This document shows positions 1,194 to 60,104 of a stretch of DNA of 64,000 bases, one piece after another. The DNA is from Parietichytrium sp. I65-24A. Taxonomy: Eukaryota > Sar > Bigyra > Thraustochytrida > Thraustochytriidae. Made by a program: the position numbers and the translations under genes. A model generated the notes under the pieces. That model was not told where the DNA came from and did no database searches. It worked only from the letters and a program-made list of their open reading frames with translations. The stretch lies in the NCBI GenBank assembly GCA_012862575.1, contig BLSF01000088.1:62001-126000 (forward strand), given 5' to 3'. Numbering within the stretch: position 1 is the first letter of the stretch; each line of letters begins with the position of its first letter.

Positions 1194-1230
<37 letters not shown>

Positions 1231-38452: not shown

Positions 38453-39052
38453 ATGGAGAGGAATAAAGCCCCTAGCTACGCGGCTTTGCTGGCTGAGCCA
38501 AACTGGAAGGCTCTTCTCAAGGTGGCTGCAGACAGACAAGAAGCCCGTCTTCAGCGCGATTTCCAGCAAAAGCTTGAGGAGGAACTCAGAAAGAATATCG
38601 ACGACCAATCCTTGCTTCTACACCGAAACAAAATCATCAACGAGATCCTAACACTGCAGTGCCCGTCCTGCAAGAAGGCCTTCGTTGACTTTGCCGCGTG
38701 CTTTGCCGTGCAGTGCATCGATCAAATTGGGAATGATTGCAAGACCTACTTTTGCGCATGGTGTCTTACAAACTGTGGGCGAAACAGTCAAGTTGCACAC
38801 AGCCATGTAGCGAACTGTCCTTCGAATCGATCAAGGGCTTGGAATGTGTACTTTGGCGACCACGCCGAGCGCGACAAGGAGATGAAGCGCCTCCGCGCTA
38901 AGAGGCTCGGAGAGTATTGGGCCGCGGAGATCTCTGGGAGGGCGAGCAGGGAGGTGGAGAATGGTCTCAAGTCTCTCCTTGTTGGGTTTCGCGAGTCGAT
39001 TGATTTTGATGTTCTGCCGCCTGCACTCGCAGAGTTCTTATTACAAAGCTAA
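38453..39052 (+). pseudogene. Truncated copy of the LRR-kinase-RING family (C-terminal module only)
   Basis: Open frame of 199 codons with its own ATG. From AALLAEPNWKALL to the stop it matches the last about 190 residues of genes A-C, including the IBR-like Cys/His module (CPSCKKAF, FCAWCLTNCG, AHSHVANC) and the C-terminal ALAEFLLQ. It lacks the LRRs, coiled coil, kinase and first RING-like module. Relative to the paralogues it has FAACF for FDACF and CGRNSQ for CGPSSQ. The 3' flank is shared with gene A, so it is the remnant of a fourth tandem gene. The frame is intact, so it could be expressed as a small standalone zinc-binding protein, but truncation makes pseudogene the safer call. Confidence 0.7.
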
Positions 39053-39092
39053 ACAAATAAACACCTGGAGAGATAAATTTTATTTCGTGGCA

Positions 39093-39372
39093 TTAAGTTT
39101 TGAGAACAGAGAATCATGTGTCGATGTCTAATGTACACTCAGACCACCGCTCCGCGAAATGGCATCGTACAGACGGTGAGTGGCGCAAAGGTTTCGTGCA
39201 CAGCTGCAAAGTCGGAGAATAACCTTTGCGATGGGGTTGGCCACTTGGAGACGCACTTAGAGCCGCCACAATCTCATAAGAAGTGCAGACCTGGTCAGCA
39301 TGGTGCAAGTCGAGATCCAATAAGGAATCCGTCAAATGCAATATTTTTTTCCGCGGCATTTAAAGAGTAAAT
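39093..39372. repeat. Duplicated 3' flank (truncated copy)
   Basis: About 280 bp starting near TTTTGAGAACA, nearly identical to 45708-45975 downstream of gene A. The shared flank shows that the duplication unit was a gene plus its downstream sequence. Confidence 0.9.
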
Positions 39373-39927
39373 AAACATTGATTACAAGCAAACCCATCAT
39401 GCTCTTGTCGAGAGGCGGGAGATCTAGCTAGAGCTAGTCTCATCCTAAGCCTGCATTCCTAAGCAGAGGATTAGAGCCGTCTTAGAAAACCTGTAGTATC
39501 CAGCTATAAAATCGAGTACGCTCGCATTAGACGGGTGATAGTCAACTGCTTAACGACTGCTAGTCCTGACGAGGACGTGTACGCCTGCTGTACGTCGCGT
39601 AGGCGGACGAGCAGTTCCTTGTTCTTGCCATTTCTTGCCAAAGTTCTTCACCTGTCTTCACCTACTATCTTTCTTTCTTTCTCAAGCGTGCAACGTGTAC
39701 GCGACCGGGAGAGCTGCGTGGGGCGTCTAACATGGACAGTAGACCTCGAAAGGCAGCTAGAGAAGCTGACTCTGAGTTTGGTAACCTCCCAACTCGAGAC
39801 GCGCGCAGCGAGGACGACAGAGACCGACAGAGGACAGAGGGCGACCAAGTTGACGAAGAGAGGAGAAGAGAAGGAAAGAAAGAAAGATAGAAAGATAGAA
39901 AGAGAAAGAAAGAGAGGAGACGGGAAG
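39373..39927. other. Promoter and leader region of gene A
   Basis: Non-coding. It carries a block conserved before genes A, B and C (39686-39706) and ends in a long purine-rich GAAAGA tract immediately before the ATG, also seen in B and C. Confidence 0.65.
39686..39706 (+). promoter_or_regulatory. Conserved upstream block of the array (gene A copy)
   Basis: GCGTGCAACG then TGTACGCGACC, about 240 bp upstream of the gene A ATG. Near-identical blocks occur at 46380-46400 (gene B) and 54650-54670 (gene C), inside otherwise more diverged promoter sequence. A regulatory role is inferred. Confidence 0.45.
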
Positions 39928-42900
39928 ATGGGCAAGTACTTCGAGGAGCGAAGCTGTGACGGCGTCAAGTTGATGTATTGGTGTGTGGAGACGTTGGGCG
40001 AAGGTCTTGAGGCGATGGACCGAGGAGAAGTTGCCGTGCAGTGAGTTGTAGAGATTAGCAGAGCAGAAGTTGGAGTGGGTTTGGTTGCTAATGGCGAAGT
40101 CGTTTCATAAAGGTTTGGGTGGAGTTGCAAGTTGGGGCAGGATGGGGCGCGAAAGATTGCTGCCAAGCTCGAGCGAAACAAGACGCTTGTGAGATTGATG
40201 TGAGTGGATTCATTCATCACGCGACAAGTCTTACGAGCTGTCGTGATGTTTTCATGAATTTGGGGAGGTAAAGACGACTTGCTTCTCGTGGAAAACGTTC
40301 AGTACATTTCTTGACCTCATTCGTGCGTCCATGCAATGCATTGCTTGTCTCTTCTGGAAATAAATAGTCTTTGGCCTAATGGAATTCGCGGTGAAGGAGC
40401 ATCAGCGATCGGTCGCGCGTTGGAGAAGAACACTGCGCTGTCTACATTGGAGTACGTTTGACTTTGACACGGCCTATGCGTGAAAACTTTCACTACATTT
40501 CCTGACTTGGCTCGTGCGTTCGTGTTGTGCGGCTGACAATTTCTCGCCACTTTTGGAAACAACTAGGCTTGGGTGGAATGAAATCGGTGCTAAAGGAGCA
40601 CTAGCTATCGGTCGCGCGTTGGAGCGGAACACTGCGTTGACTGCATTGGAGTACGGCTGACGTTGACAGCGGCTATACGTGAAATCGTTTTTCAAATCGT
40701 TTTTCACATTTCCTTGTTTGAGCTTTGCGGCTGACGAATTTTTGTTTATTCTGGAAACAAATAGTCTTTGCTCGAATGGAATTGGCACTGAAGGATTGTC
40801 AGTGATCAGTCGTGCGTTGAAGAAGATTGCTGCGCTGACTACATTGGGGTACGTGTGACTTTGACATCCTGCTTTCCATGGAAACATTCGGGACGTCTAA
40901 TGGTTCGTGCTCTATGGCTAATGAGTCTTCGTCATTTCTGAAATAAATAGTCCTCCACAAAATGAAATTGGCGCTGAAGGAGTATCAGCAATCGGTCGCG
41001 CGTTGGAGAAGAACACTGCGCTGACTACATTGGAGTACGTGTGACTTTGACACAGGCTTCAAGTAAAAATGATCAATACATTTTCCTGACCTCGTTTGCG
41101 TGTTCGTGCTTTGTGGCTGACGACGTTTTTTCTCTTCTTTAATTAAACAAAAGTCTTTCTTCCAATGGAATTGGCGAGAAAGGAGCATCAGCGATCGGTC
41201 GCGCGTTGGAGAAGAACACTGTGCTGACTGAATTGAAGTACGTGTGACTTTGACACGGGCTTCAAGTAAAAATGATCAATACATCTCCTGACCTCGTTTG
41301 TGCGTTCGTGTTGTGTGGCTGAAACTTTTTCTCTTACCTGGAAATCATAGTCTTTCTGAAAATGGAATTGGTACTGAAGGAGCATCAGCGATTGGTCGCG
41401 CGTTGGAGAAGAACACTGTGCTGACTGAATTGAAGTACGTGTGACTTTGACTCGGGCTTTTCGTTACACCCTTCGTACATCTCCTGACCTCGTTCGTGCT
41501 TTGCGGCTGACAATTCCTTGTGTCTCTTTTTTTGGAATTCTGAAACCCACTTGGTCAAATTTCTCGTGCTTGACCACTGTGACGTGCTGACGTCATGCAA
41601 AGTCTTGACAATTACAATGGAACCGGGATCCAAGAGTCGCTCCGGTTAAACCGAGACATTGCAACATGCCGTGAGGAAGCGCAAAGGGGGGAGGCGGAGA
41701 GACTCAGAAGAGAAGCGGAGGAGGAGGCAGAGAGACTCAGGAAAGCAAAAGCAGAACAGAAAAAACAAGAGCAGGAAGAACAACAAAGAAAGCTTGCACA
41801 GGAACAGGAAGTAGAGATGCGCAGGCAAGAGCGGGAGGGACCCGTGCCATGGACGGAGTCTGTCAAGCTCTTTGCGCGGTTGGTGAGCTTGAACAATGAT
41901 CTTGTGAGGCGACGCGAGTTTGCAAAGGGCGGAGTGGAGCTGCCAAAAGCTGCTGTGCAGTTGGAGTGGTGCGCCATTCAATTCGCGCGGGACCCCACCG
42001 AGCCTTTTGAGAGCTTTTTTGCCGCGCTTCATGCTGCCAAGGAGAGCCAAACGGCTTTTGAGGGGCTTCAAAGCGAGGTTAAAAGCAACATTGGACGAAA
42101 ACAGGCTCGCAATGANACAGGCTTCAAGTAAAAATGATCAATACATTTTCCTGACCTCGTTTGCGTGTTCGTGCTTTGTGGCTGACGACGTTTTTTCTCT
42201 TCTTTAATTAAACAAAAGTCTTTCTTCCAATGGAATTGGCGAGAAAGGAGCATCAGCGATCGGTCGCGCGTTGGAGAAGAACACTGTGCTGACTGAATTG
42301 AAGTACGTGTGACTTTGACACGGGCTTCAAGTAAAAATGATCAATACATCTCCTGACCTCGTTTGTGCGTTCGTGTTGTGTGGCTGAAACTTTTTCTCTT
42401 ACCTGGAAATCATAGTCTTTCTGAAAATGGAATTGGTACTGAAGGAGCATCAGCGATTGGTCGCGCGTTGGAGAAGAACACTGTGCTGACTGAATTGAAG
42501 TACGTGTGACTTTGACTCGGGCTTTTCGTTACACCCTTCGTACATCTCCTGACCTCGTTCGTGCTTTGCGGCTGACAATTCCTTGTGTCTCTTTTTTTGG
42601 AATTCTGAAACCCACTTGGTCAAATTTCTCGTGCTTGACCACTGTGACGTGCTGACGTCATGCAAAGTCTTGACAATTACAATGGAACCGGGATCCAAGA
42701 GTCGCTCCGGTTAAACCGAGACATTGCAACATGCCGTGAGGAAGCGCAAAGGGGGGAGGCGGAGAGACTCAGAAGAGAAGCGGAGGAGGAGGCAGAGAGA
42801 CTCAGGAAAGCAAAAGCAGAACAGAAAAAACAAGAGCAGGAAGAACAACAAAGAAAGCTTGCACAGGAACAGGAAGTAGAGATGCGCAGGCAAGAGCGGG

Positions 42901-45659
42901 AGGGACCCGTGCCATGGACGGAGTCTGTCAAGCTCTTTGCGCGGTTGGTGAGCTTGAACAATGATCTTGTGAGGCGACGCGAGTTTGCAAAGGGCGGAGT
43001 GGAGCTGCCAAAAGCTGCTGTGCAGTTGGAGTGGTGCGCCATTCAATTCGCGCGGGACCCCACCGAGCCTTTTGAGAGCTTTTTTGCCGCGCTTCATGCT
43101 GCCAAGGAGAGCCAAACGGCTTTTGAGGGGCTTCAAAGCGAGGTTAAAAGCAACATTGGACGAAAACAGGCTCGCAATGAAGCGCGGCAGAAGCTTCAAA
43201 AACTGGTCTCCATCGTTCTCGAAGAAAATGCAACCTTAAAACTGAACAACGTCGAGAAAGAGTGGCGCCGCTGGGAAAGCAAACTAAATCAGGACATCTC
43301 TGCAAATGTTGAACGCATCAGAAGCAGCACAACGCTCCTGAGCTTTGACCTCGAGAGCTTTAGAGAAATATGCTCCAGCACAATTGCTCAGCTTCAAAAT
43401 GCCCACGAGTCTCTGCAAGGGTGGAAGGGCCACCACGACTCCCGAGTATGGCGAGCCAAATCCGAGCAAGCGATGGTTCAGCTCAAACGAGCCGTGTCAC
43501 AAGACGGTAAGAGGGATGTCTTTGAAGTCGTCTTGAGCGCAGATGGCTTAGAAGAGGTGAAGCAGTGGTTGAAGCAAGCAGTTACCGTATTAGAAGGCGA
43601 GTACAACTGTTTGCGGGAAGACCACCCCGAAGCCGACTTTCCTGAAGCGAAAATAGAAATGGCCCTGAAGGCTCTCAGGCTGTTTGTTCAGGATGATATG
43701 TTTGTCTTTCTTGAGTGGGTTCGTGAACAAGTGAACACGTATGAAAATTTGCAAGCATTCTATGCGACAGGAAGCAAAGAGCCGTCTACTCGAGCCTTTG
43801 AGACTCTCGTAGAGAACGTACATGGGCTTGAGGATGATATTGCTAAGTGTGAGTTTGCGTCAGGGAGGCTTGAGAAGCAAATTGTACGCGGAAAAGACCG
43901 AGATGGAAGCTTGGCATCCGAAAACCATGAACTGAACACCAAGTCAAAAAGATTGCGAGAAAATTTGAGAAGGCTCTCTCGTCGATTGGTGGCAGAGCGT
44001 GCGCGGTTGCTGCGCACAGCCGAGCTTCATTATCCAGAGCTGTTGGCCAGTCCCGAGTGGACTCGAGTTCTCGGACTTGAGGATGTTCCCGGTGCGGACT
44101 TGCTGCAAAAGAACGGTGTGTTGCTAGAAGGCTTTCGAGCGCAGGACTTCACCGTTATACGGACACTGGGCTCTTCAAGCCCTGGAAGAAGAGTCGATCT
44201 GGTGGAGGATTCGAGTATCTCTCGGGAAGGCAGGGGTGCAATCGCTTCGACTCGACGAGTTCTGAAATCATTCCATCTTGGCGACCCTGATGCCCAAAAG
44301 TACTTTCTGCGGCAGTGCGCCGTGCTGACCTCATTACGCGATGCAAACGTGGCTCGAGTGGAAAATGTGTTCCTGGATCGCGAAGCGAACCTCGGGTGCA
44401 TTGTGATGCCCTTCTACGAGAACGGTGACCTGAATGTGTGGCTCGAGTCGACCCCGCCGACGGCAAGAGAGATGTGGAGGTGCAAGTCGCTCGCCATGGA
44501 TATCCTTCAGGGCTTGAACCAGATCCATTCAGCGGGTCACGTTCATTGCGACTTGAAGCCGCACAACGTATTCCTGACGCGGTCGTTTCGCGCCGTTCTT
44601 GGAGACTTTGACGGTGTGCAGAAAAATGGCCGGACGCTTACAGCCAACCTCCAGGTGACATTGGACTACCTCGCGCCGGAGCTGAGGGACGGGTCGCAAC
44701 ACAAGGTCACTGCGGCTGTGGACATGTACGCTTGCGGGAGGATTCTGGAGCAGTTGCTGGATGGGGTCGCGAAAGAGGGAAGCGGCTGCAATGCTCTGAT
44801 TTCGAGTCTAATGAGCGCCGATCCTCACGCCCGGCCGACGGCCAACCAAGCTCTGCAAGACGAATTCTTTTCCGAAAAGCCTGCTGAGACCCGCGATTGT
44901 TGGACGTGCTGGGATAAGTGTCTTGAGCAGAACACAGTCGTGTGTGGTAGCGGCGCACATTGCTTGTGCAAGGAGTGCTTGAGCAACCTTGTGAGAGGCG
45001 GTGTCAACCCGGAAACAGTTGCGATGGACGGCACTCTGCGGTGTTGCATGCCTGAATGTCAAGAACTGCTACCGTCGAGTTCTATCGCGGCTTTGTTGGC
45101 CGAGTCAGACTGGAAGGCGCTTCTGAAGGTGGCAGCAGACAGGCATGAAGCCCGTCTTCAGCGCGATTTCCAGCAAAAGCTTGAGGAGGAACTCAAGAAG
45201 AGTATCGACGACCAATCCTTGCTTCTACACCGAAACAAAATCATCAACGAGATCCTTACATTGCAGTGCCCGTCCTGCAAGAAGGCTTTCGTTGACTTTG
45301 ATGCCTGTTTCGCCGTGCAGTGCATTGACACTATGGGCAACGGGTGCAAGACCTACTTTTGTGCATGGTGTCTTACAAACTGTGGGCCAAGCAGTCAAGC
45401 CGCGCACAGGCATGTTGCGAACTGTCCTTCGAATCGATCAAGGGATCAGAATGTGTACTTTGGCGACCACGCCAAGCGCGACAAGGAGATGAAGCGCCTC
45501 CGCGCCAAGAGACTCGGAGAGTATTGGACCGCCGAGATCTCCGGTCGAGCGAGTAAAGAAGTAGAGACTGGTCTCAAGTCTCTCCTTGTTGGGTTTCGCG
45601 AGTCGATTGAATTCGATGTTCTGCCGCCTGCACTCGCAGAGTTCTTATTACAATTCTAG
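39928..45659 (+). CDS. Gene A: LRR-coiled coil-kinase-like-RING/IBR-like protein
   Basis: Exons 39928-40040, 40113-40199, then six LRR exons (40368-40451, 40567-40650, 40765-40848, 40951-41034, 41154-41237, 41351-41434) and a last exon 42668-45659. The sum is 3,696 nt, an open frame of 1,231 residues. The copies at 41603-42115, 42219-42302 and 42416-42499 are treated as an assembly duplicate around the N at 42116. Domains: N-cap, ribonuclease-inhibitor-type LRRs, highly charged coiled coil (about 245-300) and helical region, kinase-like domain about 727-985 with HCDLKPHN and LAPEL but GDFDGV in place of DFG and FLRQCAVL where the alpha-C Glu is expected, a RING-like module (CWTC...CGSGAHCLCKEC...CMPEC), and an IBR-like module (CPSC...FCAWC...HRHVANC). 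Probably an intracellular sensor or E3-type protein; function unknown. Confidence 0.85.
40368..41434 (+). repeat. LRR-exon array of gene A (6 units)
   Basis: Six 84-nt exons, each one 28-residue LRR, at a period of about 185-205 bp, with introns of 102-119 bp that also resemble each other (GTACGTGTGACTTTG donor region; GCTGAC branch-like motif; AAATAG acceptor). Each exon starts after codon position 2, so any unit can be lost or gained in frame. Confidence 0.92.
41052..42115 (+). repeat. Duplicate copy 1 flanking the assembly N
   Basis: 1,064 bp identical, as far as I can compare, to 42117-43180 (offset 1,065), covering two LRR exons, their introns and the first 513 nt of the last exon. It ends mid-codon at the N. 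Most likely the end of one contig overlapping the start of the next. Confidence 0.93.
42116..42116. other. Single-N contig join
   Basis: One ambiguous base between two identical 1,064-bp stretches. It interrupts the coding frame of the upstream copy. It looks like a scaffolding join of overlapping contigs rather than a base-call ambiguity. Confidence 0.9.
42117..43180 (+). repeat. Duplicate copy 2 flanking the assembly N
   Basis: Second copy of the 1,064-bp stretch. It continues without a break into the rest of the gene A last exon, so this copy is the one used in the gene model. Confidence 0.93.
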
Positions 45660-45707
45660 AAGAAACAAACACCTGTAGCGACAACATTTTTTTTTGTGGC
45701 ATAAAAT

Positions 45708-45975
45708 TTTGAGAACAGGATATCATGTGTCGATGTCTAATGTAAACTCAGACCACCGCTCCGCGAAATGACATCGTACAAACGGTGAGTGGCACAAAGG
45801 TTTCGTGCACAGCTGCAAAGTCGGAGAATGACCTTTGCGATGGGGTTGGCCACTTGGAGACGCACTCAGGGCCGCCACAATCTCATAAAAAGTGCAGACC
45901 TGGTCAGCATGGTGCAAGTCGAGATCCAATAAGGAATCCGTCAAATGCAATATTTTTTTTCCGTGGCATTTATTA
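45708..45975. repeat. Duplicated 3' flank (gene A)
   Basis: Nearly identical to 39093-39372. Differences are scattered single bases and short indels. A weaker remnant (CAAGC.CATC...CTCTTGTTGA..GACGGGAGATCTAG) lies after gene B near 54195-54238. Confidence 0.9.
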
Positions 45976-46379
45976 AAGAGTGAATAGACTGAATAGACAT
46001 TGGCAAGCAAACCCATCATGCTCTTGTTGACAGGCGGGAGATCTAGCCAGAGCTAGTCTCAGCCAACTCAGCCACAGCGAAAGTGAGCAGAGGTAATCCC
46101 AACTTTTCTTCCTCGCTAGTAGCTAGTAGAGCCAACTCATTAACTTTAACTATTAATCTCATCCTAAGCAGATTATTAGAGCCGCCCTAGAGAGCCAGTA
46201 GTCTCCAGCTAGACGATCGAGTACGCCTGCAGTACCTGCAGTACATGGGATGTTATTCAACTGCATAATAACGGCTAGGCCTTGACGAGGACGTGTACGC
46301 CCGTACGTGGCGTAGGTCAGACGAGCAGTTCCTTGTTCTAAAGTGCAACAACAACCACGAACCTCTCTCTCATTCTCAT

Positions 46380-46400
46380 GCGTGCAACGTTTACGCGACC
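46380..46400 (+). promoter_or_regulatory. Conserved upstream block of the array (gene B copy)
   Basis: GCGTGCAACG then TTTACGCGACC, about 320 bp upstream of the gene B ATG. Confidence 0.45.
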
Positions 46401-46701
46401 CAGAGGGAACTGTGCGTCATGTTTACGCTGTCTGCTGGAAAGGAAAGCGCAGCTGGACATAGCGGGACACGGAGTTCCGTAACGTCGGAAAGGAGGCTCG
46501 AGTATCCAAGCAACACTAATCCACTATGCTCTATTTGCTCTATTTGCTCTATCCTCTATCCATGGACAATATCCACGCACGCGCGAACGACAGAGAGCGA
46601 CAGAGGACGGAACTTTGTGAGCGACCAAGTTTTGACGAAGAGAAGGAAAGAAAGATAGATTGATAGAAAGATAGAAAGAAAGAAAGAGAGGAGACGTGAA
46701 G

Positions 46702-49700
46702 ATGGGAAAGTATCAGGAGTTAAGTTCTAACGGCGTCAAGTTGAGGTATTGGTTTGTGGAGACGTTGGACGAAGGTCTTGAGGCAATAGACCGAGGAGAA
46801 GTTGCCGTGCGGTGAGTTGTAGAGATTAGCAGAGCAGAAGATGGATTGGTTTGGTGCTAATGGCGATTTACTTTTGTACAGGTTTGGGCCGGGTTGCAAG
46901 TTGGGGCAGGATGGGGCGCGAAAGATTGCTGCCAAGCTCGAGCGAAACAAGACGCTTGTGAGATTGATGTGAGTGGATTCATTCATCACGCGGCAAGTCT
47001 TGCGAGCTGTCGTGATGTTTGCGCGAAATTGGGGAAGCAATGACGACTTGCTTCTCGTGGGAAACGTTCAGTACATTTCCTGACCTCGTTCGGGCCATCG
47101 CGCTTTGTGGCTGACCATTTCTTGTCGTATCTGGGAATTATAGTCTTTCTAAAAGTGGAATTGGTGCTGAAGGAGCATCAGCGATCGGTCGCGCGTTGGA
47201 GAAGAACACTGCGCTGACTACGCTGGAGTACGTGTGACTTTTGAAACGGGCTTCTTGTGAAACCTCATGGTAAATGTCCTGGTCTCGTTCGTGTTTTGTG
47301 ATTGACGAGTCAGTGTCTTCTCCATAACAAATAGTCTCTCTTCCAATGGAATTGGCTCTGAAGGAGCATCAGCGATCGGTCGCGCGTTGGGAAAAAATAC
47401 TGCGCTGACGCTCTTGAAGTACGATGGACTTTGACACTGTCTTTTCGTGAAAGAATCCAGCATATCTCCACTTGTTCGAACTCTGGCTGACAATTTCTTG
47501 TGTTTCTGGAAACAAATAGTCTCTATGGCAATGATATTCGCTATTCAGGAGCATCAGCGATCGGTAGCGCGTTGGAGAAGAACACTGCGCTGACTACGCT
47601 GGAGTACGTGTGACTTTTGAAACGGGCTTCTTGTGAAACCCTATGGTAAATTTCCTGGTCTCGCTCGTGTTTTGTGATTGACAAGTCATTTTCTTCTCCA
47701 AAACAAATAGTCTCTCTTCCAATGGAATTGGTGCTAATGGAGCATCAGCGATCGGTCGCGCGTTGAGGAAAAATACTGCGCTGACGCGCTTGAAGTACGA
47801 TGGACTTTGACGCTGTCTTTCGTGAAACAAACCAGCATATTTTCCCTTGTTCGAACTCTGGCTGACAATTTCTTGTGTTTCTGGAAACAAATAGTCTCTA
47901 TGGCAATGATATTAGCTCTGCAGGAGCATCAGCGATCGGTCGCGCGTTGGAGAAGAACACTGCGCTGACTACACTGGAGTACGTGTGACTTTTGAAACGG
48001 GCTTCTTGTGAAACCCTATGGTAAATTTCCTGGTCTCGCTCGTGTTTTGTGATTGACGAGTCATTGTCTTCTCCAAAACAAATAGTCTCTCTTCGAATGG
48101 AATTGGCGCTGAAGGAGCTTCAACAATCGGTCGCGCGTTGGAGAAGAACACAGCACTGACTACGCTTATGTACGTGTGACTTTGGCCACTTGCCCTTGGT
48201 GAAACTGTTTAGTACATTTTTTGCTAACTTCTGAAAAAAAAAAAAGGTTTCAAAGTAATGCAATTCGCGCTTACGGAGCATCGGCGATCGGCCACGCGTT
48301 GAAGACGAATACTGCGCTGACTACTTTGGAGTAGGTGTGACATTAATACGTGCTTTCGTGAAACTCTTGTATACATTTGCTATCCACGTTCGTGCATTCA
48401 TGTTTTGCGGCTGACAAAATTTGGTCTTTTCTGGAAATAAACAGTCTTCAACGAACCGAAACTGACGCTGAAGGAGCATCAGCGATCTTTGCTGGGCTGA
48501 AGAAGAATACTGCGCTGACTACATTGAAGTACGTGTGACGTTGAGACAGGCGTTTTGTGGAAAGCTTCAGCTGACATCATATGTGCTTTGCTGTCAACAA
48601 TGTCTTGTCTTATCTGGAGAACCGTAGTCTTCGACTGAACGAAATTGACGCTGAAGGAGCTTCAGCGATCGGTCGCGCGTTGAAAAAGAACACTGCCCTG
48701 ACTGCACTTAAGTACGTGGGACGTTGACCGGAGCATTTTTTTGGAAACCCTTCATTCAATACATGATGTGACCTCGCTCACGCATTCATGCTTTGTGGCT
48801 GACGATAACTTGTTACTTCCGGGAATAAACAGTCTTCAACGGAACGGAATTGGCGCTGGAGGGGCACAAGCAATCGGTCGCGCGTTGGAGAAGAACGCTG
48901 CACTGACTACGTTGGGGTACGTGTGACTTTGACAATCGCCTTTTGGGAGAATGTTCTGTACACTGCCTGACCTTGTCTGAGTATTCCCGCTGACGATTTC
49001 TTGCCTTTTCTGAAAACAAATAGTCTTTCTGAAAACAGAATTCGCGCTGAAGGAGCATCAGTGATCGGTCGCGCGTTGGAGAAGAACGCTGCGCTAACTA
49101 CATTAGAGTAAGTGCGACTTTCACATTGTGCTAACTTTGCTTGTGCTTGCGGCTGACTATTCCTTGTCTTTTCTGGAAATGAATAGTCTTTCTGAAAACG
49201 AAATTTGCGCTGAAGGAGTAACAATAATTGGTCGCGCGTTGGAGAAGAACACTGTGCTGAGGAAGTTGGAGTACGTGCGAATTTGTCGCAGGCTTTTCCT
49301 GAAAACGTTCAGTATATTTACTAAGATTGCTCGTGCTTTGCGGCTGACGATTTGTTGTCTTTTCTCGAACAAATAGTCTCTTTTTCAATGAAACTGGCGA
49401 CGAAGGTGCATCAGCGATCGGTCGCGCGTTGGAGAAGAACACTGCGCTGACTACTTTGGAGTACGTATGACTTTGCCCATTTCCACCAAAAGCTCTTCAG
49501 TACATTCCCTGACCTCACTCGTGCGTTCGCCCGTTGTGTCTGACAATTTCTTGTCTTTTCTGGAAACAAACAGTCTCTCTAAGAATGGAATCGGCGCTGA
49601 AGGAGCATCAGCGATTGGTCGCGCGTTGGAAAGGAACACGGCGCTGACGACATTGTAGTACGTGTGACTTTGGCATTGGCTTCTCGTGAAAATCGTCGGT

Positions 49701-52700
49701 ACATTTCCTGGCCTCGGCCGTGCGATCGTGTGATCGTGCTTAGCGGCTGACATTTTCTTGGATTTTGGAAATGAATAGTCTTTCTGAAAATGGAATTCGC
49801 GCTGAAGGAGCTTCAGCGATCGGCCGCGCGTTGGAGAAGAACACTGTGCTGACTAAGTTGGAGTACGTGAGACTTTGGCACAGGCTTTTAGTAAACATGG
49901 TCAGTACAATTCCTAACATCATTCGTGCTTTGCGTCTGACGATTGCTTGTTCTTTGGGGGGAGAAATAGTCTTCGGTCGAATGAAATTAATGCTGGAAGA
50001 GCATCACCGATCGGTCGCGCGTTTGAGAAGATTACTGGGCTGACTACAATCGGGTACGTGTGACTTTGACACTTTGCTCATCGTGAAAACAATCAGTATG
50101 TCTAATCCTTATTCGCGCTTTATGGCTAATGGTTTCTTGTCATTCCTGGAAATAAATAGTCTTCGAAATGGAATTGGCGCTGAAGGAGCATCAGCGATCG
50201 GTCGCGCGTTGGAGAAGAACACTGCGCTGATGTACTTGAAGTACGTGTGACTACGAGTAGTGTNTTTCTTGTCATTCCTGGAAATAAATAGTCTTCGAAA
50301 TGGAATTGGCGCTGAAGGAGCATCAGCGATCGGTCGCGCGTTGGAGAAGAACACTGCGCTGATGTACTTGAAGTACGTGTGACTTTGGCATGGGCTTTTC
50401 CTGACACCCTTCAGTGTTCGTGCTGTGTGGCTGACGATTTCTTAACTTTTTTTTTGAAATATATAGTCTTTCTTCCAATAGGTTTGGCACTGCAGAAGCG
50501 TCAGCGATCGGTCGCGCGTTGGAGAAGAACGCTGCGCTGACTACATTGTAGTACGTATGGCTTTGACACTTTCATTTCGAAAACCCTTCTGTACATTTCC
50601 TCACCTCCTTTGTGCGTCCATGCTTTACCATTGTTTTTTTGGAAAAAAAATAGTCTTTCTGAGACTGAAATTGGCACTGAAGGAGCATCGGCGATTGGTC
50701 GCGCGTTGGAGAAGAACACTACGCTGATCGTATTGGTGTACGTCTGATTTTGACACGGGCGTTTTGTGAAGACCATTAGTACCTTTCTTGACCTCCTTCA
50801 TGCTTTGCGGCTGACAATTTTTCGTGTTTTCTATTTTCAAAAATTCTTACAATTTAAAATCTATTTGGTCAATGTACCTGTGCTTGACCACTGTGCCGAA
50901 ATGATATCTTGCACAGCCTTGATGATCACTTTGGAACCGGAATGAAAGAGGCGCTCCAGAGAAACGAGGATATCGCGAGACACCGTGAGGAAGCGCAAAG
51001 GGAGGAGGCAGAGAGACTCCGGAAAGAAAAAGAAGAACAGGAACAACAAAGAAAGCTTGCGGAGGAGGCAGAGAGACGCCGAGAGGAATTGGAGGGACCC
51101 GTCCCTTGGACGGAGTCTGTCAAGCTTTTTGCGCGGTTGGCGAGCTTGAACGCTGATCTTGTCAGGCGACGCGAGTCCGCGAAGGGTGGAGTGGAGTTGC
51201 CTGAAGCTGCCGTGACGTTGGAGTGGTGCACAGTCGAGTTCGTACAGGATCCCGCCGAGCCTTTTGAGAGCTTTTTTGCCGCCCTTCAGGCTGCCAAGGA
51301 GAGCCAAACGGCCTTTGAGGGGCTTCAAAGCGAGGTCAAAAGCAACATTGAACGAAAACAGGCTCGAAATGAAGCCCGCGAGAAGCTTCAGAAACTGGTC
51401 TCCATCGTTCTCGAGGAAAATGCAACCTTGACACTGAGCAACACCGAGAAAGACTGGCGCCGCTGGGAAAGCAGATTAAAGGAGGACATCTCTGCAAATG
51501 TTGAACGCATCAGAAGCGGCACAAAGCTCAGGAGCTTTGACCTCGAGAGCTTTAGAAAGATCTACTCAAGCACAATTGCTCAGCTTTATGATGCTCACGA
51601 GTCTCTGCAGGGGTGGAAGTACCGTCACGACTCCCGAGTATGGCGAGCCAAATCCGACCAAGCGATGGTTCAGCTCAAACGAGCCACGGTACAAGACAGT
51701 AACAGAGATGCCTTCGGAGTCGTCTCAAGCGCAGGTGGCTTAGAGGAAGTGAAGCAGTGGTTGAAGCAAGCAGTTACCGTGTTAGAAGGCGAGTACAACC
51801 TTTTGGGGGAAGACCACCCCGAAGCCGACTTTCCTGAAGCGGAAATAGAAATGGCCCTGAAGGCTCTCAGGCTGTTTGTTCAGGATGATATGTTTGTCTT
51901 TCTTGAGTGGGTTCGTGAGCAAGTGAACACGTTTGAAGATTTGCAAGTATTCTATGCGACAGGAAGCGAAGAGCCGTCCACTGGAGCCTATGAGACTCTC
52001 GCAGAGAACGTCCATGGGCTTGAGGATGATATTGCTGAGTGTGAGTTTGCATCAGGGATGCTTGAGAAGCAAATTGTACGCGGAAAAGACCAAGATGGAA
52101 GCTTGGCATCCGAATACAATAAACTGAACACCAAGTCCAAAAGATTGCGAGAAAATTTGAGAAGGCTCTCTCGTCGATTGGTGGCAGAGCGTGCGCGGTT
52201 GCTGCGCGCAGCCGAGCTTCATTATCCAGAGTTGTTGGCCAGTCCCGAGTGGGCTCGAGTTCTCGGACTTGAGGATGTTCCCGGTGCGGACTTGCTGCAA
52301 AAGAACGGTGTGTTGCTGGAAGGTTTTCGAGCGCAGGACTTCACTATTATAAGGACGCTGGGCTCTTCAAGCCCTGGAAGAAGAGTCGATCTGGTGGAGG
52401 ATTCGAGTATCTCTCGGGAAGGCAGGGGTGCAATCGCTTCGACTCGACGAGTTCTGAAATCATTCCATCTTGGCGACCCTGATGCCCAAAAGTACTTTCT
52501 GCGGCAGTGCGCCGTGCTGACCTCATTACGCGATGCAAACGTGGCTCGAGTGGAAAATGTGTTCCTGGATCGCGAAGCGAACCTCGGGTGCATTGTGATG
52601 CCCTTCTACGAGAACGGTGACCTGAATGTGTGGCTCGAGTCGACCCCGCCGACGGCAAGGGAGATGTGGAGGTGCAAGTCGCTCGCCATGGATATCCTTC

Positions 52701-53851
52701 AGGGCTTGAACCAGATCCATTCAGCGGGTCACGTTCATTGCGACTTGAAGCCGCACAACGTATTCCTGACGCGGTCGTTTCGCGCCGTTCTTGGAGACTT
52801 TGACGGTGTGCAGAAAAATGGCCGGACGCTTACAGCCAACCTCCAGGTGACATTGGACTACCTCGCGCCGGAGCTGAGGGACGGGTCGCAACACAAGGTC
52901 ACTGCGGCTGTGGACATGTACGCTTGCGGGAGGATTCTGGAGCAGTTGCTGGATGGGGTCGCCAAAGAGGGAAGCGGCTGCAATGCTCTGCTTTCGAGTC
53001 TAATGAGCGCCGATCCTCACGCCAGGCCGACGGCCAACCAAGCTCTGCAAGACGAATTCTTTACCGAAAAGCCTGCTGAGACCCGCGATTGTTGGACGTG
53101 CTGGGATAAGTGTCTTGAGCAGAACACAGTCGTGTGTGGCAGCGGCGCACATTGCTTGTGCAAGGAGTGCTTGAGCAACCTTGTGAGAGGCGGTGTCAAC
53201 CCGGAAACAGTTGCGATGGACGGCACTCTGCGGTGTTGCATGCCTGAATGTCAAGAACTGCTGCCGTCGAGTTCTATGGCGGCTTTGTTGGCCGAGTCAG
53301 ACTGGAAGGCGCTTCTGAAGGTGGCAGCAGACAGGCAAGAAGCCCGTCTTCAGCGCGATCTCCAGCAAAAGCTCGAGGAGGAACTCAAGAAGAGTATCGA
53401 CGACCAATCCTTGCTTCTACACCGAAACAAAATCATCAACGAGATCCTTACATTGCAGTGCCCGTCCTGCAAGAAGGCTTTCGTTGACTTTGATGCCTGT
53501 TTCGCCGTGCAGTGCATTGACACTATGGGCAACGGGTGCAAGACCTACTTTTGTGCATGGTGTCTTACAAACTGTGGGCCAAGCAGTCAAGCCGCGCACA
53601 GGCATGTTGCGAACTGTCCTTCGAATCGATCAAGGGATCAGAATGTGTACTTTGGCGACCACGCCAAGCGCGACAAGGAGATGAAGCGCCTCCGCGCCAA
53701 GAGACTTGGAGAGTATTGGACTGCCGAGATCTCCGGTCGAGCGAGTAAAGAAGTAGAGGCTGGTCTCAAGTCTCTCCTTGTTGGGTTTCGCGAGTCGATT
53801 GATTTTGATGTTCTGCCGCCTGCACTCGCAGAGTTCTTATTACAATGCTAG
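46702..53851 (+). CDS. Gene B: LRR-coiled coil-kinase-like-RING/IBR-like protein, long LRR form
   Basis: Exons 46702-46811, 46882-46968; LRR exons start at 47144, 47335, 47520, 47711, 47895, 48086, 48247, 48445, 48628, 48833, 49024, 49187, 49377, 49574, 49779, 49970 (84 nt each), 50160 (81 nt; repeated at 50292 across an N), 50467, 50654 (84 nt each); last exon 50917-53851. Counting the N-flanked unit once gives 4,725 nt and 1,574 residues in frame. It is the same architecture as gene A with a solenoid three times longer. The coiled coil is shorter and diverged, but the kinase-like domain is almost residue-identical to A, including HCDLKPHN and the unusual GDFDGV. The RING-like and IBR-like modules keep all expected Cys/His ligands. 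Every donor and acceptor follows GT...AG. The large LRR excess suggests ligand-recognition diversification, which is inference. Confidence 0.85.
47144..48169 (+). repeat. Two-exon higher-order repeat within gene B
   Basis: Exon-intron pairs recur with period 375-376 bp (47144, 47520, 47895). Introns alternate between a GTGACTTTTGAAACGGGCTT type (107 bp) and a GATGGACTTTGACRCTGTC type (100-101 bp). The array therefore grew here by duplicating two LRR exons at a time. Confidence 0.88.
50133..50384 (+). repeat. 120-bp duplicate around a second assembly N (50264)
   Basis: 50133-50252 is repeated exactly at 50265-50384 (offset 132), with an 11-base unmatched tail and one N between. It duplicates the 81-nt LRR exon (50160-50240 and 50292-50372). 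Most likely another contig-overlap artefact. Confidence 0.88.
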
Positions 53852-54959
53852 AAGAAACAAAGGAAGAAGACTTGTAAAGATAAAGTGATGTTTGTGGCAT
53901 TAGATTCGAGAGTTGAAAATCACAAGTTGAAGTAACCTGAAAATTACGCATCGCGGCATAGCATTAAGGCGAATGGCGTGAAGCTTGGGTCCATCTCGTC
54001 AGTTGGAGGTTGGCATCTTAGTTCCCTCAGTTGCATGGGATTCTCATTAACCACTTCATACATGCTCTGCTTGCTTTGTAGCTTTAATCAGACGTGAACA
54101 CATGCCTCTTCGCCTTTGCAAGCACGCACTTCTCATCCGGGGTTTTCAACCCCCGTCAGTTTTTCCGCGGCATTCACACAGTGAATGGGCATTGGCAAGC
54201 CATCGATTCAAGCTCTTGTTGAGAGACGGGAGATCTAGTTCCAGCCACAGCGAAGACGAAAGCGAAAGCGAATGATAGTGAGCAGCAGTGATTCCTGATA
54301 ATTCCATTTTTTGCCACACTGGAATGGAACACATCTAGTAGACAGAGAGCAGACTCGGAATTTCGCTAACCTTAACCTGTACTCTCCACCATAAGAATCA
54401 GCGTAGAACCACCATAGGGTATCCTTAATCTCCTTCTACGCCGTCGAGTACACCAGCAGTACGCTGGGTACTACTCAATTGCGTACGCACTGATCAGGCA
54501 CTACTTAGCAGAACGAGTAAGAGCACGAGTACGTCTGCCTTGGTCTACAGTACGTCACATAATAGGGTAGCGAAGCAGCTCCTTGTTCGTTCCAAAGTTC
54601 AGGAATGAATAAGCCCACCTACTTAAGGTACTAATTCTTCCCTTCACCTGCGTGCGACGTTTACGCGACCCAGATGAAACCGTGTGCATAGTGTGCATAG
54701 TGTGCATGTTTACTGTGTCTGCTGGAAAGAAAAGCGCAGTTGCATAGAGCTGAATAGAGCTGGATACGTTGACTCGGAGTTCTGTAACATCGGAAAGGAG
54801 GCGCGAGTATCCAAGCAACACTGTCCACGCACGACACACGCGTGGACGACAGAGTTTGACAGAGGACGGAAAGTTGTGAGTGACCAAGTTGACGAAGAGA
54901 AGAGAAGTAAAGATAGATAGATAGATAGATAGATTGAAAGAAAGAGAGGAGACGGAAAG
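53852..54959. other. Intergenic B-C and gene C promoter
   Basis: Non-coding. It shows partial similarity to the flanks of the other array genes (near 54168-54250), the conserved upstream block, and a purine-rich leader ending at the gene C ATG. Confidence 0.65.
54650..54670 (+). promoter_or_regulatory. Conserved upstream block of the array (gene C copy)
   Basis: GCGTGCGACG then TTTACGCGACC, about 310 bp upstream of the gene C ATG; one base differs from the gene B copy. Confidence 0.45.
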
Positions 54960-57900
54960 ATGGGTCATTATAAGGACCTAAGCTTTAATGGCGTCAATTT
55001 GAGGTTTTGGTATGTGGGTTCGTGGAACGAAGGTCTTGAGGCGATGGACCGAGGAGAAGTTGCCGTGCGGTGAGTTGTAGAGATTAGCAGAGCAGAAGTT
55101 GGAAGTTGGAGTGGGTTTGGTTGCTAATGGCGAAGTCGTTTCATAAAGGTTTGGGTGGAGTTGCAGCAACGTGGGGCCGAATGGGGCGCGAAGGATTGCT
55201 GCCAAGCTCGAGCGAAACAAGACGCTTGTGAGATTGATGTGAGTGGATTCGTTCTTCACGCGGCAAGTCTTGCGAGCTGTCGTGATGTTTTCGCGAAGTT
55301 GATGAGGCAATGGCGCCTTGACTCTTGTGAAAAACTTGAGTACATTTCCTGACCTTGTTCATGCGTTCGTGCTTTCCGGCTGACTATTTTTGTCTTCTCC
55401 GGAAATAAATAGTCTTAGGTGCAATGGAATTCGCGGTGAAGGAGCATCAGCGATCGGTCGCGCGTTGGAGAAGAACACTGCGCTGACTACTTTGGAGTAC
55501 GTGTGACTTTGGCGCAGACTAAGCGTTAAAAAGTTCACTACATTTCCTGACTTTGTTCGTGCTTTGCGGCTGACGACCTCTTTTCTTGTTGTAAATAGTC
55601 TTGCTGAAAATGAATTTGGGGATGGAGGCGCATCAGCGATCGGTCGTGCGTTGGAGAAGAAGAACACTGCGCTGAATACATTGACGTACGTGTGACTTTG
55701 GCACGGTCAATGCGTGAAAACGCTCACTACATTTTTAGACTTCGTTCGCGCGTTCGTGCTTTGCGGCTGACGACTTCTTATCTTGATATGTAAAGACTTG
55801 CTGAAAATGGAATTGGTGATGGAGGCGCATCAGCGATCGGTCGCGCGTTGGAGAAGAACACTGGACTGACTGCATTGAAGTACGTGTGACTTTGGCACGG
55901 CCTATGCGTGAAACTTTTCACTACATTTCCTGACTTGGCTCGTGCGTTCGTGTTGCGCGGCTGACAATTTCTTGTCTCTTCTGGAATTAAACAGTCTTAG
56001 ATGTAATGGAATTAGCGCTGAAGAGCATCAGCGATCGGTCGCGCGTTGGAGAAGAACACTGCGCTGACTGATTTGAAGTACGTGTGGCTTTGACACAGGC
56101 CCAAGTAACATTGACCAGTACATTTCCTGGCCTCATTGTGCGTGCGTGCTTCGCGGCTAACTACTTCTTTTCTTCTCTGGAAACAAATAGTCTCTATGCC
56201 AATAAAATTGGCCTTGAAGGAGTATCAGCGATCTGTCGTGCGTTGGAGAAGAACACTGCGCTGACTACATTGGAGTACGTGTGACTTTGGCACGGGTACA
56301 CGTGAAGAGTTTATTTACAATTCCTGACCTCGTTCGTGCTTCACGGCTGACTATGTTTTGTCTTCTCCGGAAATAAATAGTCTTGGATGGAATGAAATCG
56401 GTGCTGAAGGAGCCTTAGCGATCGGTCGCGCGTTGGAGAAGAACACTGTGCTGACTACATTGAAGTACGGGTGACGTTGACAGCGGCTATACGTGAAATC
56501 GTTTTTCAAATCGTTTTTCAAATTTCCTTGTTAGCTTTGCGGCTGACGAATTTTGGTTTGTTCTGGAAACAAATAGGCTTCGATCGAATGGAATTGGCGC
56601 TGAAGGAGTATCAGCAGTCGGTCGCGCGTTGGAGACGAACACTGCGCTGACTGCATTGGAGTACGTGTGACTTTGGCACGATCTTTTCGCGGAGAGGTTC
56701 AGTACATTTCCTGACCTCGTTTGTGTGTTCGTGCTTTTGCGGCTGACGACTTCTTTTCTCTTCTTTTCTTTGAACAAAAAGTCTTTCTTCCAATGGAATT
56801 GGCGGGAAAGGAGCATCAGCGATCGGTCACGCGTTGGAGAAGAACACTGTGCTGACGACATTGAGGTACGCGTGACTTGACTCGGGCCTCAAGTAAATAG
56901 GATCAGTACATTTCCTGAACTCGTTTGTGTGTTCGTGCTTGCGGCTGAAACTTTTACTCTTATTTGGAAATCATAGTCTTCTTGAAAATCGAATAGGTGC
57001 TGAAGGAGCATCAGCGATCGGTCACGCGTTGAAGAAGAACACTGCTCTGACCTCAATATAGTACGTATGACTTTGACTCGGGCTTTTCGTTACACCCTTC
57101 GGTACATATCCTGACCTCGTTCGTGCTTTGCGGCTGGCACTTTCCTGCGTTTTCTCTCTTGGAATTCTAAACCCAACTTGGTCAATTTTCTCATGCTTGA
57201 CCACTGTGACTGCCTGATGTCTTACAAAGTCTTGACAATTACAATGGAACCGCGATCCAAGAGGCGCTCTGGAGAAATCAAGACATCGTGAAATGCCGCG
57301 AGGAAGCGCAGAGAGAGGAGGCAGAGAGGCGCAGGCAAGAACGGGAGGGACCCGTGCCATGGACGGAGTCTGTCAAGCTCTTTGCGCGGTTGGTGAGCTT
57401 GAACACTGATCTTGTCAGGCGACGCGAGTTTGCAAAGGGCAGAGTGGAGCTGCCAAAAGCTGCTGTGCAGTTGGAGTGGTGCGCCATTCAATTCGCGCGG
57501 GACCCCACTGAGCCTTTTGAGAGCTTTATTGCCGCCCTTCATGCTGCCAAGGAGAGCCAAACGGCTTTTGAGGGGCTTCAAAGCGAGGTTAAAAGCAACG
57601 TTGAACGAAAACAGGCTCGAAATAAAGCGCGCGAGAAGGTTCAAAAACTGGTGTTCATCGTGCTCGAAAAAAATGCAACCTTGACACTGAGAAACGCCGA
57701 GAAAGACTGGCACCGCTGGGAAAGCAGACTAAAGGAGGACAACTCTGCAAATGTCGAAAGCATCAGAGGCAGCGTAAAGCTCTGGAGCTTTGAACTCGAG
57801 AGCTTTAGAGAAATATGCTCCAGCACAATTGCTCAGCTTCATAATGCCCACGACTCTCTGCGAGGGTGGAAGGACATCCACGACTCCCGAGTATGGCAAG

Positions 57901-60104
57901 CCAAATCCGAGCAAGCGATGGATCAGCTCAAACGAGCCGTGTCACAAGACGGTAAGAGAGATGCCTTCGAAGTCGTCTCGAGCGCAGATGGCTTAGAAGA
58001 GGTGAAGCAGTGGTTGAAGCAAGCAGTTGCCGTACTAGAAAGTGAGTACAACCTTTTGCGGGAAGACCACCCCGAAGCCGACTTTCCTGAAGCGAAAATA
58101 GAAATGGCCCTGAAGGCTCTCAGGCTGTTTGTTCAGGATGATATGTTTGTCTTTCTTGGGTGGGTTCGTGAACAAGTAAACACGTATGAAGATTTGCAAG
58201 CATTCTATGCGACAGGAAGCGAAGAGCCGTCTACTCGAGCCTTTGAGACTCTCGCAGAGAACGTACATGGGCTTGAGGATGATATTGCTAAGTGTGAGTT
58301 TGCGTCAGGGAGGCTTGAGAAGCAAATTGTACGCGGAAAAGACCGAGATGGAAGCTTGGCATCTGAAAACCATGAGCTGAAGACCAAGTCCGAAAGGTTG
58401 CGAGAAAACTTGAAAAGGCTCTCTCGTCGATTGGTGGCAGAGCGTGCGCGGTTGCTGCGCGCAGCCGAGCTTCATTATCCAGAGTTGTTGGCCAGTCCCG
58501 AGTGGGCTCGAGTTCTCGGACTTGAGGACGTTCCAGGTGCGGACTTGCTGCAAAGGAACGGTGTGTTGCTGGAAGGCTTTCGAGCGCAGGACTTCACTGT
58601 TATAAGGACGCTGGGCTCTTCAAGCCCTGGAAGAAGAGTCGATCTGGTGGAGGATTCAAGTATCTCTCGGGAAGGCAGGGGTGCAATCGCTTCGACTCGA
58701 CGAGTCCTGAAGTCATTTCATCTTGGCGACCCTGATGCCCAAAAGTACTTTCTGCGGCAGTGCGCCGTGCTGACCTCATTACGCGATGCAAACGTGGCTC
58801 GAGTGGAAAATGTGTTCCTGGATCGCGAAGCGAACCTCGGGTGCATTGTGATGCCCTTCTACGAGAACGGTGACCTGAATGTGTGGCTCGAGTCGACCCC
58901 GCCGACGGCAAGAGAGATGTGGAGGTGCAAGTCGCTCGCCATGGATATCCTTCAGGGCTTGAACCAGATCCATTCAGCGGGTCACGTTCATTGCGACTTG
59001 AAGCCGCACAACGTATTCCTGACGCGGTCGTTTCGCGCCGTTCTTGGAGACTTTGACGGTGTGCAGAAAAATGGCCGGACGCTTACAGCCAACCTCCAGG
59101 TGACATTGGACTACCTCGCGCCGGAGCTGAGGGACGGGTCGCAACACAAGGTCACTGCGGCTGTGGACATGTACGCTTGCGGGAGGATTCTGGAGCAGTT
59201 GCTGGATGGGGTCGCCAAAGAGGGAAGCGGCTGCAATGCTCTGCTTTCGAGTCTAATGAGCGCCGATCCTCACGCCAGGCCGACGGCCAACCAAGCTCTG
59301 CAAGACGAATTCTTTTCCGAAAAGCCTGCTGAGACCCGCGATTGTTGGACGTGCTGGGATAAGTATCTTGAGCAGAACACGATCGTGTGTGGTAGCGGCG
59401 TGCATAGCTTGTGTAAGGAGTGCTTGAGCAACCTTGTGAGAGGCGGTGTCAACCCGGAAACAGTTGCGATGGACGGCACTCTGCGGTGTTGCATGCCTGA
59501 ATGTCAAGAACTGCTACCGTCGAGTTCTATCGCGGCTTTGTTGGCCGAGTCAGACTGGAAGGCGCTTCTGAAGGTGGCAGCAGACAGGCAAGAAGCCCGT
59601 CTTCAGCGCGATTTCCAGCGAACGCTTGAGGAGGAACTCAAGAAGAGTATCGACGACCAATCCTTGCTTCTACACCGAAACAAAATCATCAACGAGATCC
59701 TCACACTGCAGTGCCCGTCCTGCAAGAAAGCTTTTGTGGACTTTGATGCCTGTTTCGCCGTGCAGTGCATTGACACTATGGGCAACGGGTGCAAGACCTA
59801 CTTTTGTGCATGGTGTCTTACAAACTGTGGGCCGAGCAGTCAAGTTGCACACAGCCATGTAGCGAACTGTCCTTCGAATCGATCAAGGGCTTGGAATGTG
59901 CTTTTTGGCGACCACGCCGAGCGCGACAAGGAGATGAAGCGCCTCCGCGCCAAGAGGCTCGGAGAGTATTGGGCCGCCGAGATCTCCGGTCGCGCGAGTA
60001 AAGAAGTAGAAGCTGGTCTCAAGTCTCTCCTTCTTTGGTTTCGCGAGTCGATTGATTTTGATGTTCTGCCGCCTGCACTCGCAGAGTTCATATTGCAATG
60101 CTAA
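54960..60104 (+). CDS. Gene C: LRR-coiled coil-kinase-like-RING/IBR-like protein with one frameshifted LRR exon
   Basis: Exons 54960-55069, 55149-55238, LRR exons 55413-55496, 55599-55685, 55796-55879, 55995-56077, 56191-56274, 56381-56464, 56577-56660, 56782-56865, 56977-57060, and last exon 57230-60104. The unit at 55995 is 83 nt because GAAGGAGCATCA reads GAAGAGCATCA; including it breaks the frame. Skipping it restores 1,249 residues, since the exons are phase-symmetric. The exon at 55599 has one extra Lys codon (87 nt). The domain order is that of A and B, but the charged coiled coil after the LRRs is much shorter. The kinase-like domain has the same HCDLKPHN and GDFDGV. The RING-like module reads CWTCWDKYL and CGSGVHSLCKEC, changing two extra Cys but keeping the likely zinc ligands. 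It is either a functional gene with a sequencing error or skipped exon, or an early pseudogene. Confidence 0.78.
55413..57060 (+). repeat. LRR-exon array of gene C (9 units)
   Basis: Nine LRR exons. Intron fingerprints tie them to gene A: the intron after 55879 matches the A intron after 40451, the one after 56464 matches that after 40650 (shared CAGCGGCTATACGTGAAATC), and the last two match the A introns after 41237 and 41434. Confidence 0.9.

Follow-up and report, generated by a model that had tools for sequence, protein, structure and literature searches.

Architectures that resemble parts of the proteins considered here are known from several systems. In NLR receptors of plants and animals, a variable leucine-rich repeat (LRR) arm is attached to a constant signalling region. 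KEG of plants and MEKK1 of animals each unite a kinase with a RING-type E3 module, and a His at +2 from the catalytic Cys is a feature of RING2 in the RING-between-RING (RBR) E3 ligases, which include parkin, HHARI/ARIH1, HOIP and RNF216. Phosphorylation turns on parkin and can do so for HHARI, while RNF216 is phosphorylated in vitro on Ser719, as stated in the cited section of one account (PMC9834252). In brown algal ROCO proteins, which are candidate immune receptors, each LRR is encoded by a 72-bp phase-2 exon and selected sites lie on the concave face, according to the portion of the report cited here (PMC11378527). In this study, we analyzed a 64,000-nt stretch (hereafter, the window) of the genome of the thraustochytrid Parietichytrium sp. 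I65-24A (GenBank assembly GCA_012862575.1, contig BLSF01000088.1, abbreviated C88; C88:62001-126000), the + strand of which carries a cluster of three tandem genes and a truncated fourth copy. We consider it rather probable that the cluster is part of a multigene family encoding large recognition proteins, probably intracellular, that combine a variable repeat arm with a kinase and an RBR-type E3 output lacking the IBR domain.

Gene structure of the cluster

A preliminary description of the window, drawn up from the sequence alone, had recognized three adjacent same-strand genes and a truncated fourth, and the spliced frames bear out this layout. Gene A (39928..45659, + strand) has nine exons and encodes 1231 aa, gene B (46702..53851, + strand) has 21 exons and 1547 aa, or 22 exons and 1574 aa with the exon at an assembly join, and gene C (54960..60104, + strand) has 11 in-frame exons and 1249 aa. 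In all three models, the frame is open from ATG to stop, the introns are GT..AG, and every junction is in phase 2. The common layout consists of a short N-cap exon 1, an 87-90-nt exon 2, a series of LRR exons, and a last exon of approximately 2.9-3.0 kb, located at 42668..45659 in gene A, 50917..53851 in the spliced model of gene B (residue numbering of gene B starts at 50888), and 57230..60104 in that of gene C, all on the + strand. The LRR exons are mostly 84 nt long and symmetrical, each corresponding to one 28-residue LRR, and they number six in A, 18-19 in B, and 8-9 in C after exon 2. Frame continuity had been proposed across 9, 22, and 12 exons; the first two numbers hold, the second with one copy of a duplicated exon, whereas gene C has 11 because an 83-nt LRR exon (55995..56077, + strand) is frameshifted, its length breaking the frame. 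Since LRR exons are symmetrical, its omission preserves the frame, and it is skipped, or gene C is impaired, or the sequence contains an error. The truncated copy D (38453..39052, + strand) begins with an ATG after a T-rich stretch and holds only the end of a last exon (helix, RING2 (Rcat) and tail), matching residues 787-986 of the gene B last exon at 87%, with RING2-like ligands at 38660-38818.

Two duplications around single N characters affect these models. In gene A (41052..43180, + strand), the 1064 bases of 41052-42115 are repeated exactly at 42117-43180 with a single N at 42116 between them, and in gene B (50133..50384, + strand), the 120 bases of 50133-50252 are repeated exactly at 50265-50384 with an N at 50264, and one 81-nt LRR exon appears twice. 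Both look like contig ends joined without merging of their overlap. The last intron of gene A measures 1233 nt, but approximately 168 nt once the duplicate is removed, which matches the 179 nt of B and 169 nt of C and argues for a contig-join artefact at 42116. Such artefacts may corrupt gene models in the window and likewise elsewhere in the assembly.

Pfam scans covered the three last exons (E up to 1) and, for A and B, the spliced N-terminal portions (E up to 0.01). The repeats, described earlier as ribonuclease-inhibitor-type LRRs, matched LRR_6 with 94.9 bits in A and 247.4 bits in B (cut-off 23.4). The Rfam search of the window gave no match. Several observations connect the LRR exons to the large last exon. 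The last exon of gene A opens with an LRR-like cap, LDNYNGTGIQESL (assigned by eye), in the phase supplied by the LRR exons. Among 13 other loci scanned in the assembly (42.5 Mb, 172 contigs), seven (on C30, C2, C29, C8, C140b, C45, and C73) have an LRR array directly upstream of the same type of last exon, so the pairing exceeds chance. The other six, several of which are fragments, have no directly upstream array: C13 and C11b have such exons only downstream, C71 has two approximately 3 kb upstream, and C60, C32b, and C62 have none. In P0001, a homologue of 1240 aa predicted from another source, LRRs, a helical region, a kinase, and both zinc modules lie in one protein, as had been anticipated for the window genes, and the same combination occurs in P0003 from Hondaea fermentalgiana, with the second zinc module cut short. 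Because of these two homologues, the cap in phase, the seven loci with upstream arrays, and the shared junction phase, the reading of LRRs, helical coil, kinase, and two zinc modules as a single polypeptide in A, B, and C is well supported at the level of sequence.

Helical coil, kinase, and RING1-linker-RING2 cassette

The last exon, as annotated in gene A, encodes a coil, a kinase, a RING1, a helical linker, and a RING2-like module. The coiled-coil region of the preliminary description corresponds to residues 76-430 of gene B (51113..52177, + strand), which are helical in the AlphaFold2 model of the last exon (mean pLDDT 75.0, pTM 0.44). The kinase-like domain was detected as Pkinase in all three last exons (cut-off 31.7 bits), with 91.5 bits in gene A (44148..44879, + strand; bounds transferred from gene B), 90.9 bits in gene B (52340..53071, + strand; residues 485-728), and 90.8 bits in gene C (58593..59324, + strand). 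At E up to 1e-6, a PDB sequence search returned 277 distinct matches, and the best 60 are kinases such as CDKs, IRAK4, and PKR. In gene B, we take K524 to be the β3 Lys, D619 in the HCD motif to be the catalytic Asp, D637 in the DFD motif to be the Asp of DFG, and N624 to have its usual motif role. D619, N624, and D637 are present in 18 of 18 aligned proteins and K524 in 16 (P0048 has Arg, and P0052 is misaligned there). At the α-C Glu position, assigned by eye, 16 of the 18 have Gln (Q540 in gene B), and Glu is found only in P0050 and P0052; the Gly-rich loop, also placed by eye, is irregular, with GSSSPG in gene B. The window kinases retain the catalytic residues and may be active. In a set of 29 rows, catalytic residues are missing from three divergent paralogues, C13, C11, and C32a (which have Gly, Asn, and Ser in place of D619), suggesting that the domain is probably a pseudokinase in parts of the family. 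Since these paralogues lose kinase residues but keep the zinc cassette, the cassette appears to be the constant output of the family. Hydrophobic stretches are seen by eye near the N-terminus of C13 (L033) and C11 (L029).

The two Cys/His modules had been likened to RING and IBR. The first is a C3HC4 RING1, located on the + strand at 44898..45059 in gene A, 53090..53251 in gene B (C735, C738, C750, H755, C758, C761, C783, and C788), and 59343..59504 in gene C. Its eight ligands are conserved in A and C and invariant in 18 rows, and the sole departure in 29 rows is C761 of C11. The second module proved to be RING2 (Rcat)-like, with conserved ligands at 45267..45425 in gene A and 59712..59870 in gene C, and with C858, C861, C871 at the active-site position, C876, C884, C889, C892, H906, and C910 at 53459..53617 in gene B, all on the + strand. 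Identification as an IBR was rejected, as IBR_1 scores remained below the threshold (10.2 bits in copy D; 19.9, 17.9, and 18.1 bits in P0051, P0052, and P0053), whereas the ligand spacing, the alignment with parkin RING2, and P0054, in which the module follows a true IBR, indicate a RING2-like module. P0054 is a DEAH11-like KH protein with a RING1, a canonical IBR, and a RING2-like module of the cassette type, and it may connect the classical RBRs with the IBR-less cassette.

The Pfam scan of the window proteins reported no RING, gave IBR_1 only in copy D (cut-off 27), and placed nothing above cut-off in the zinc cassette; the profile check proposed for the joined proteins recovered LRR_6 and Pkinase but neither zinc module in the parts scanned. 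The latter were assigned from conserved ligands, profile searches, and predicted structure. In the profile search, parkin RING1 matched the RING1 of the cassette, and parkin, ARIH1, ARIH2, HOIP, and CUL9 matched the RING2-like module with modest E-values; the predicted fold likewise points to RBR ligases. The active-site Cys (C871) is kept in 25 of the 27 rows that reach this position, with Ser in C140a and C140b, and it is also kept in non-kinase proteins. In place of an IBR, gene B has a helical linker (53252..53458, + strand) of 69 residues without Cys, modelled as helices. Across 29 proteins, the linker spans 39-78 residues and has no Cys in 27 (one of them cut short) and one or two in the others, and no IBR zinc domain was found in it. 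Thus, the cassette resembles RBR ligases in its C3HC4 RING1, in the RING2 spacing C-x2-C-x9-C*-x4-C with its active-site Cys position (PMC3305615), and in profile and fold matches. It differs in the missing IBR between the rings, in the missing His at +2, and in its fusion to a kinase and a variable repeat arm.

The missing IBR and His, together with the C140 copies without the catalytic Cys and the C12 homologue that fuses the cassette to an SF1 helicase, would suit a protein- or nucleic-acid-binding scaffold, leaving the kinase as the only output. We regard this as unlikely. Between diverged paralogues, no segment is under stronger constraint than the RING2-like module (ratio of nonsynonymous to synonymous substitution rates, dN/dS, 0.03-0.07 where computable), the active-site Cys is widely kept, folds and profiles point to RBR ligases, and a kinase-only output is at odds with C13, C11, and C32a, which retain the cassette despite their lost kinase residues. 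The best reading of the cassette remains an IBR-less RBR-type E3 joined to a kinase, with ligase activity predicted from these features. KEG and MEKK1 differ from it in having RING or RING/PHD only, no RING2-like module, and another order and other arms.

Relatives, repeat arm, and evolution of the family

Searching the same genome with the last exon gave 50 matches, among which 11 near-complete or long copies include A, B, C, the C140 pair, and the divergent C13. More distant cassette proteins are C11 (kinase match 56.8 bits), C32a (kinase below cut-off), C6 (no kinase), and C12 (SF1 helicase). In the last of these (L031, C12:497000-506900), the open reading frame 475-4959 is a 1495-aa frame composed of an SF1 helicase (AAA_11, AAA_12), a Cys-rich stretch, and the RING1-helix-RING2 cassette. 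With gene B residues 690-987 as the query of a protein search, none of 3176 candidates matched at E up to 0.001; this reflects insensitivity of the query, as whole-protein and Hondaea queries found the relatives. The whole gene B protein gave 32 matches, of which only P0001-P0003 span more than half of the query, and the P0002 cassette gave 24 proteins, comprising 19 records from the thraustochytrid Hondaea fermentalgiana and five others. A kinase matches in 16 of the 19 (all except P0042, P0046, and P0047), and 15 are deposited as 'Protein kinase, putative'; P0049 is deposited as 'NLR family CARD domain-containing protein 3'. N-terminal arms are recognized in nine, as ankyrin repeats (P0002, P0034, P0041, P0042, P0043, and P0048), LRRs (P0003 and P0049), or both (P0036), and the remaining ten, some of them partial, have no arm recognized by Pfam. 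P0037 has a TIR domain at its C-terminus. Twelve aligned Hondaea rows are 28-38% identical to gene B. The best matches of the family thus point to a thraustochytrid as the source of the window. A kinase with the cassette also occurs in P0052 from the cryptophyte Hanusia phi and in the metagenome protein P0050. Other protist proteins with the cassette thus include a cryptophyte kinase protein and an SF1-helicase protein. In IMG/VR, 140 pattern stretches were found, and none was confirmed as a viral relative.

The Hondaea records (P0002, P0003, and P0033-P0049) share the homologous kinase, RING1, linker, RING2-like module and, in many cases, the helical region with the window proteins, whereas ankyrin often replaces the LRR arm, one has a C-terminal TIR, and no functional description of them was found. 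The architecture had been called undescribed. This holds for the literature searched, in which we found no description of proteins with LRR or ankyrin repeats, a kinase, and RING1-RING2, but the databases already contain these 19 records with the cassette. In the main text of a Phytophthora infestans kinome paper, as far as the consulted version extends, the whole word RING occurs 0 times (PMC3019232), and in the consulted part of a transcriptome paper on Thraustochytrium, LRR proteins and kinases appear as domain counts only (PMC8917795).

Variation in the LRR arm was examined in 83 phase-2 exons of 84 nt, 31 of them in the window after the duplicated stretch was dropped; they were chosen by length and by at least 13 of 27 consensus matches, a selection that favours a conserved scaffold. 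Codons 2, 3, 5, and 26, which we assume from the LRR consensus to be exposed concave-sheet positions, have entropies of 2.85-3.57 bits, compared with 2.4 at codon 8, 1.75 at codon 9, and at most 1.3 elsewhere. In 56 nearest-neighbour exon pairs, the proportion of nonsynonymous differences (pN) at concave codons is 0.337, with an exon-wide proportion of synonymous differences (pS) of 0.168 and a local pS of 0.363, and the scaffold has a pN of 0.047 against a pS of 0.145 (ratio 0.32). For pairs up to 15 nt apart, the local pN/pS at concave codons is 0.93; the concave-codon ratios shift with the choice of synonymous reference and do not demonstrate positive selection. The arm thus appears to consist of a conserved scaffold and a hypervariable predicted binding face, with selection or loss of constraint as the cause. 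One LRR per symmetrical phase-2 exon with variation on the predicted concave face is the pattern of an exon-per-LRR diversifying receptor. Brown algal LRR-ROCO proteins share the phase-2 exon per LRR, the concave-face variation, and the proposed diversification of recognition, but have 72-bp exons and a ROC-COR GTPase where the window genes have mostly 84-nt exons and a kinase-E3 output (PMC11378527, in the portion cited). No ROC-COR was found in the Pfam scans of the three last exons or of the N-terminal parts of A and B. By this analogy, the exon-per-LRR logic is already known from other stramenopiles, and the kinase-E3 output is what differs.

In a tree of the kinase and cassette, the window family forms one starred group and the Hondaea family, together with P0001, another. 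Three arm changes are needed across the 15 rows in which an LRR or ankyrin arm is clear. A single clade of LRR rows (C140a included) was rejected (approximately unbiased test, p-AU 1.15e-98, by a quick method and with long outgroup branches), and ankyrin rows cluster no more strongly than in shuffles. The tree fits a stable output on which arms have been exchanged or lost. For the last exon, dN/dS is 0.12-0.21 when A or B is compared with C30, C2, and C8 or these three with one another, with several dS values near or above 1; it is 0.35-0.42 among A, B, and C and 0.37 against C140a. These computations show the output to be under purifying selection. The C140 copies (L038), with Ser at the active-site position, have a dN/dS of 1.06 between them and are possible decoys or decaying genes. 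The kinase tract is near-identical among A, B, and C while the coil and LRRs differ, with dS in coil and kinase of 0.199 and 0.035 for A-B, 0.214 and 0.029 for B-C, and 0.089 and 0.052 for A-C; the low kinase values point to gene conversion or to a recent exchange at the output end.

Arms of ankyrin repeats or LRRs commonly serve as adaptors, a concave local pN/pS near 1 is as expected under relaxed constraint, and the near-identical kinase tracts suggest that recombination homogenizes the cluster. These points would agree with a lineage-expanded signalling family that is not immune-like, in which the arms bind a substrate or scaffold, the cassette marks proteins for ordinary turnover, and LRR exons drift and recombine. 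We consider this possible but doubtful, because pN at concave codons reaches twice the exon-wide pS in exons whose scaffold is constrained, and because repeat number varies between paralogues while the output is kept.

Eleven of 20 family places lie less than 10 kb from a contig end (chance at most 8%), a count that omits places on C172, C37, C46, and C49, the distant cassette homologues on C6, C11, C12, and C32, and kinase-only hits. A subtelomeric location was not upheld, since assembly breaks at repeats explain this placement equally well; three consecutive TTAGGG units occur 0 times in the assembly (controls 5 and 3). The contig-end placement, the two duplicated joins, the truncated copy, and the frameshifted exon could also indicate that the repeat cluster is decaying or misassembled and holds few working genes. 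This seems improbable given that A and B are open across 9 and 21-22 exons and that dN/dS is below 1 among A, B, and C and lower still between diverged paralogues.

Other features were noted in the window and genome. A long open frame at 62129-64000 (+ strand), running off the window, has a repeated Cys-rich unit (CxNCD motif, by eye) with no Pfam match above cut-off. Neighbouring open frames at 11013-12695 and 13845-15542 (+ strand) share a YVDFRHD motif and have no Pfam match at E up to 1e-4. Genome-wide, there are 38 TIR_2 matches (37 above cut-off) and three NB-ARC matches (25-32 bits, cut-off 23.5), making this a TIR-rich, NB-ARC-poor protist genome.

Proposed mode of action and its meaning

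We propose a mode of action for the family based on its architecture. The face of the LRR arm would bind a ligand, and the helical region, by a change of conformation or by clustering, would transmit the signal or oligomerize the protein. The eukaryotic-type kinase would then act on itself or on a partner as the switch, after which the RING1-RING2 cassette would open. RING1 would take ubiquitin from an E2 and pass it to C871 of the RING2-like module, and from there to targets. We infer all of these steps, from ligand binding and oligomerization to kinase activity and thioester formation, and any role towards microbes, viruses, or self, from the architecture. To this extent, our results agree with the earlier proposal of an intracellular recognition protein that couples kinase and ubiquitin-ligase modules. 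A cis kinase as the switch of an RBR-type cassette is plausible by analogy, because phosphorylation activates parkin and can activate HHARI, and RNF216 is phosphorylated in vitro. In the PINK1/parkin system, a kinase likewise switches on an RBR ligase by phosphorylation, but two proteins act there and one polypeptide would act here (PMC9834252, cited section).

The window proteins resemble NLR receptors in combining a variable LRR arm with a constant signalling part and differ from them in the N-terminal position of the sensor. No NACHT or NB-ARC domain was found in the last exons (Pfam, E up to 1) or in the N-terminal parts of A and B (E up to 0.01). A broader proposal, to which we give only tentative credence, is that heterotrophic stramenopiles have an NLR-independent intracellular immune system, in which exon-per-repeat LRR arms and exchangeable ankyrin arms (with TIR once) would form the repertoire, and binding would set off a cis kinase that unlocks an as yet unnamed class of IBR-less, thioester-forming RING1-RING2 ligases.

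Thraustochytrids are abundant, industrially grown marine protists. If the favoured reading of recognition proteins with a kinase and an IBR-less RBR-type output is correct, they would possess a large candidate recognition repertoire with an output unlike those of NLRs, receptor kinases, and ROCO proteins, and recognition, phosphorylation, and ubiquitin transfer would be united in a single chain. The way in which single-celled stramenopiles sense viruses and bacteria would also become accessible to direct tests, as would the question of whether an RBR-type thioester mechanism can run without an IBR.

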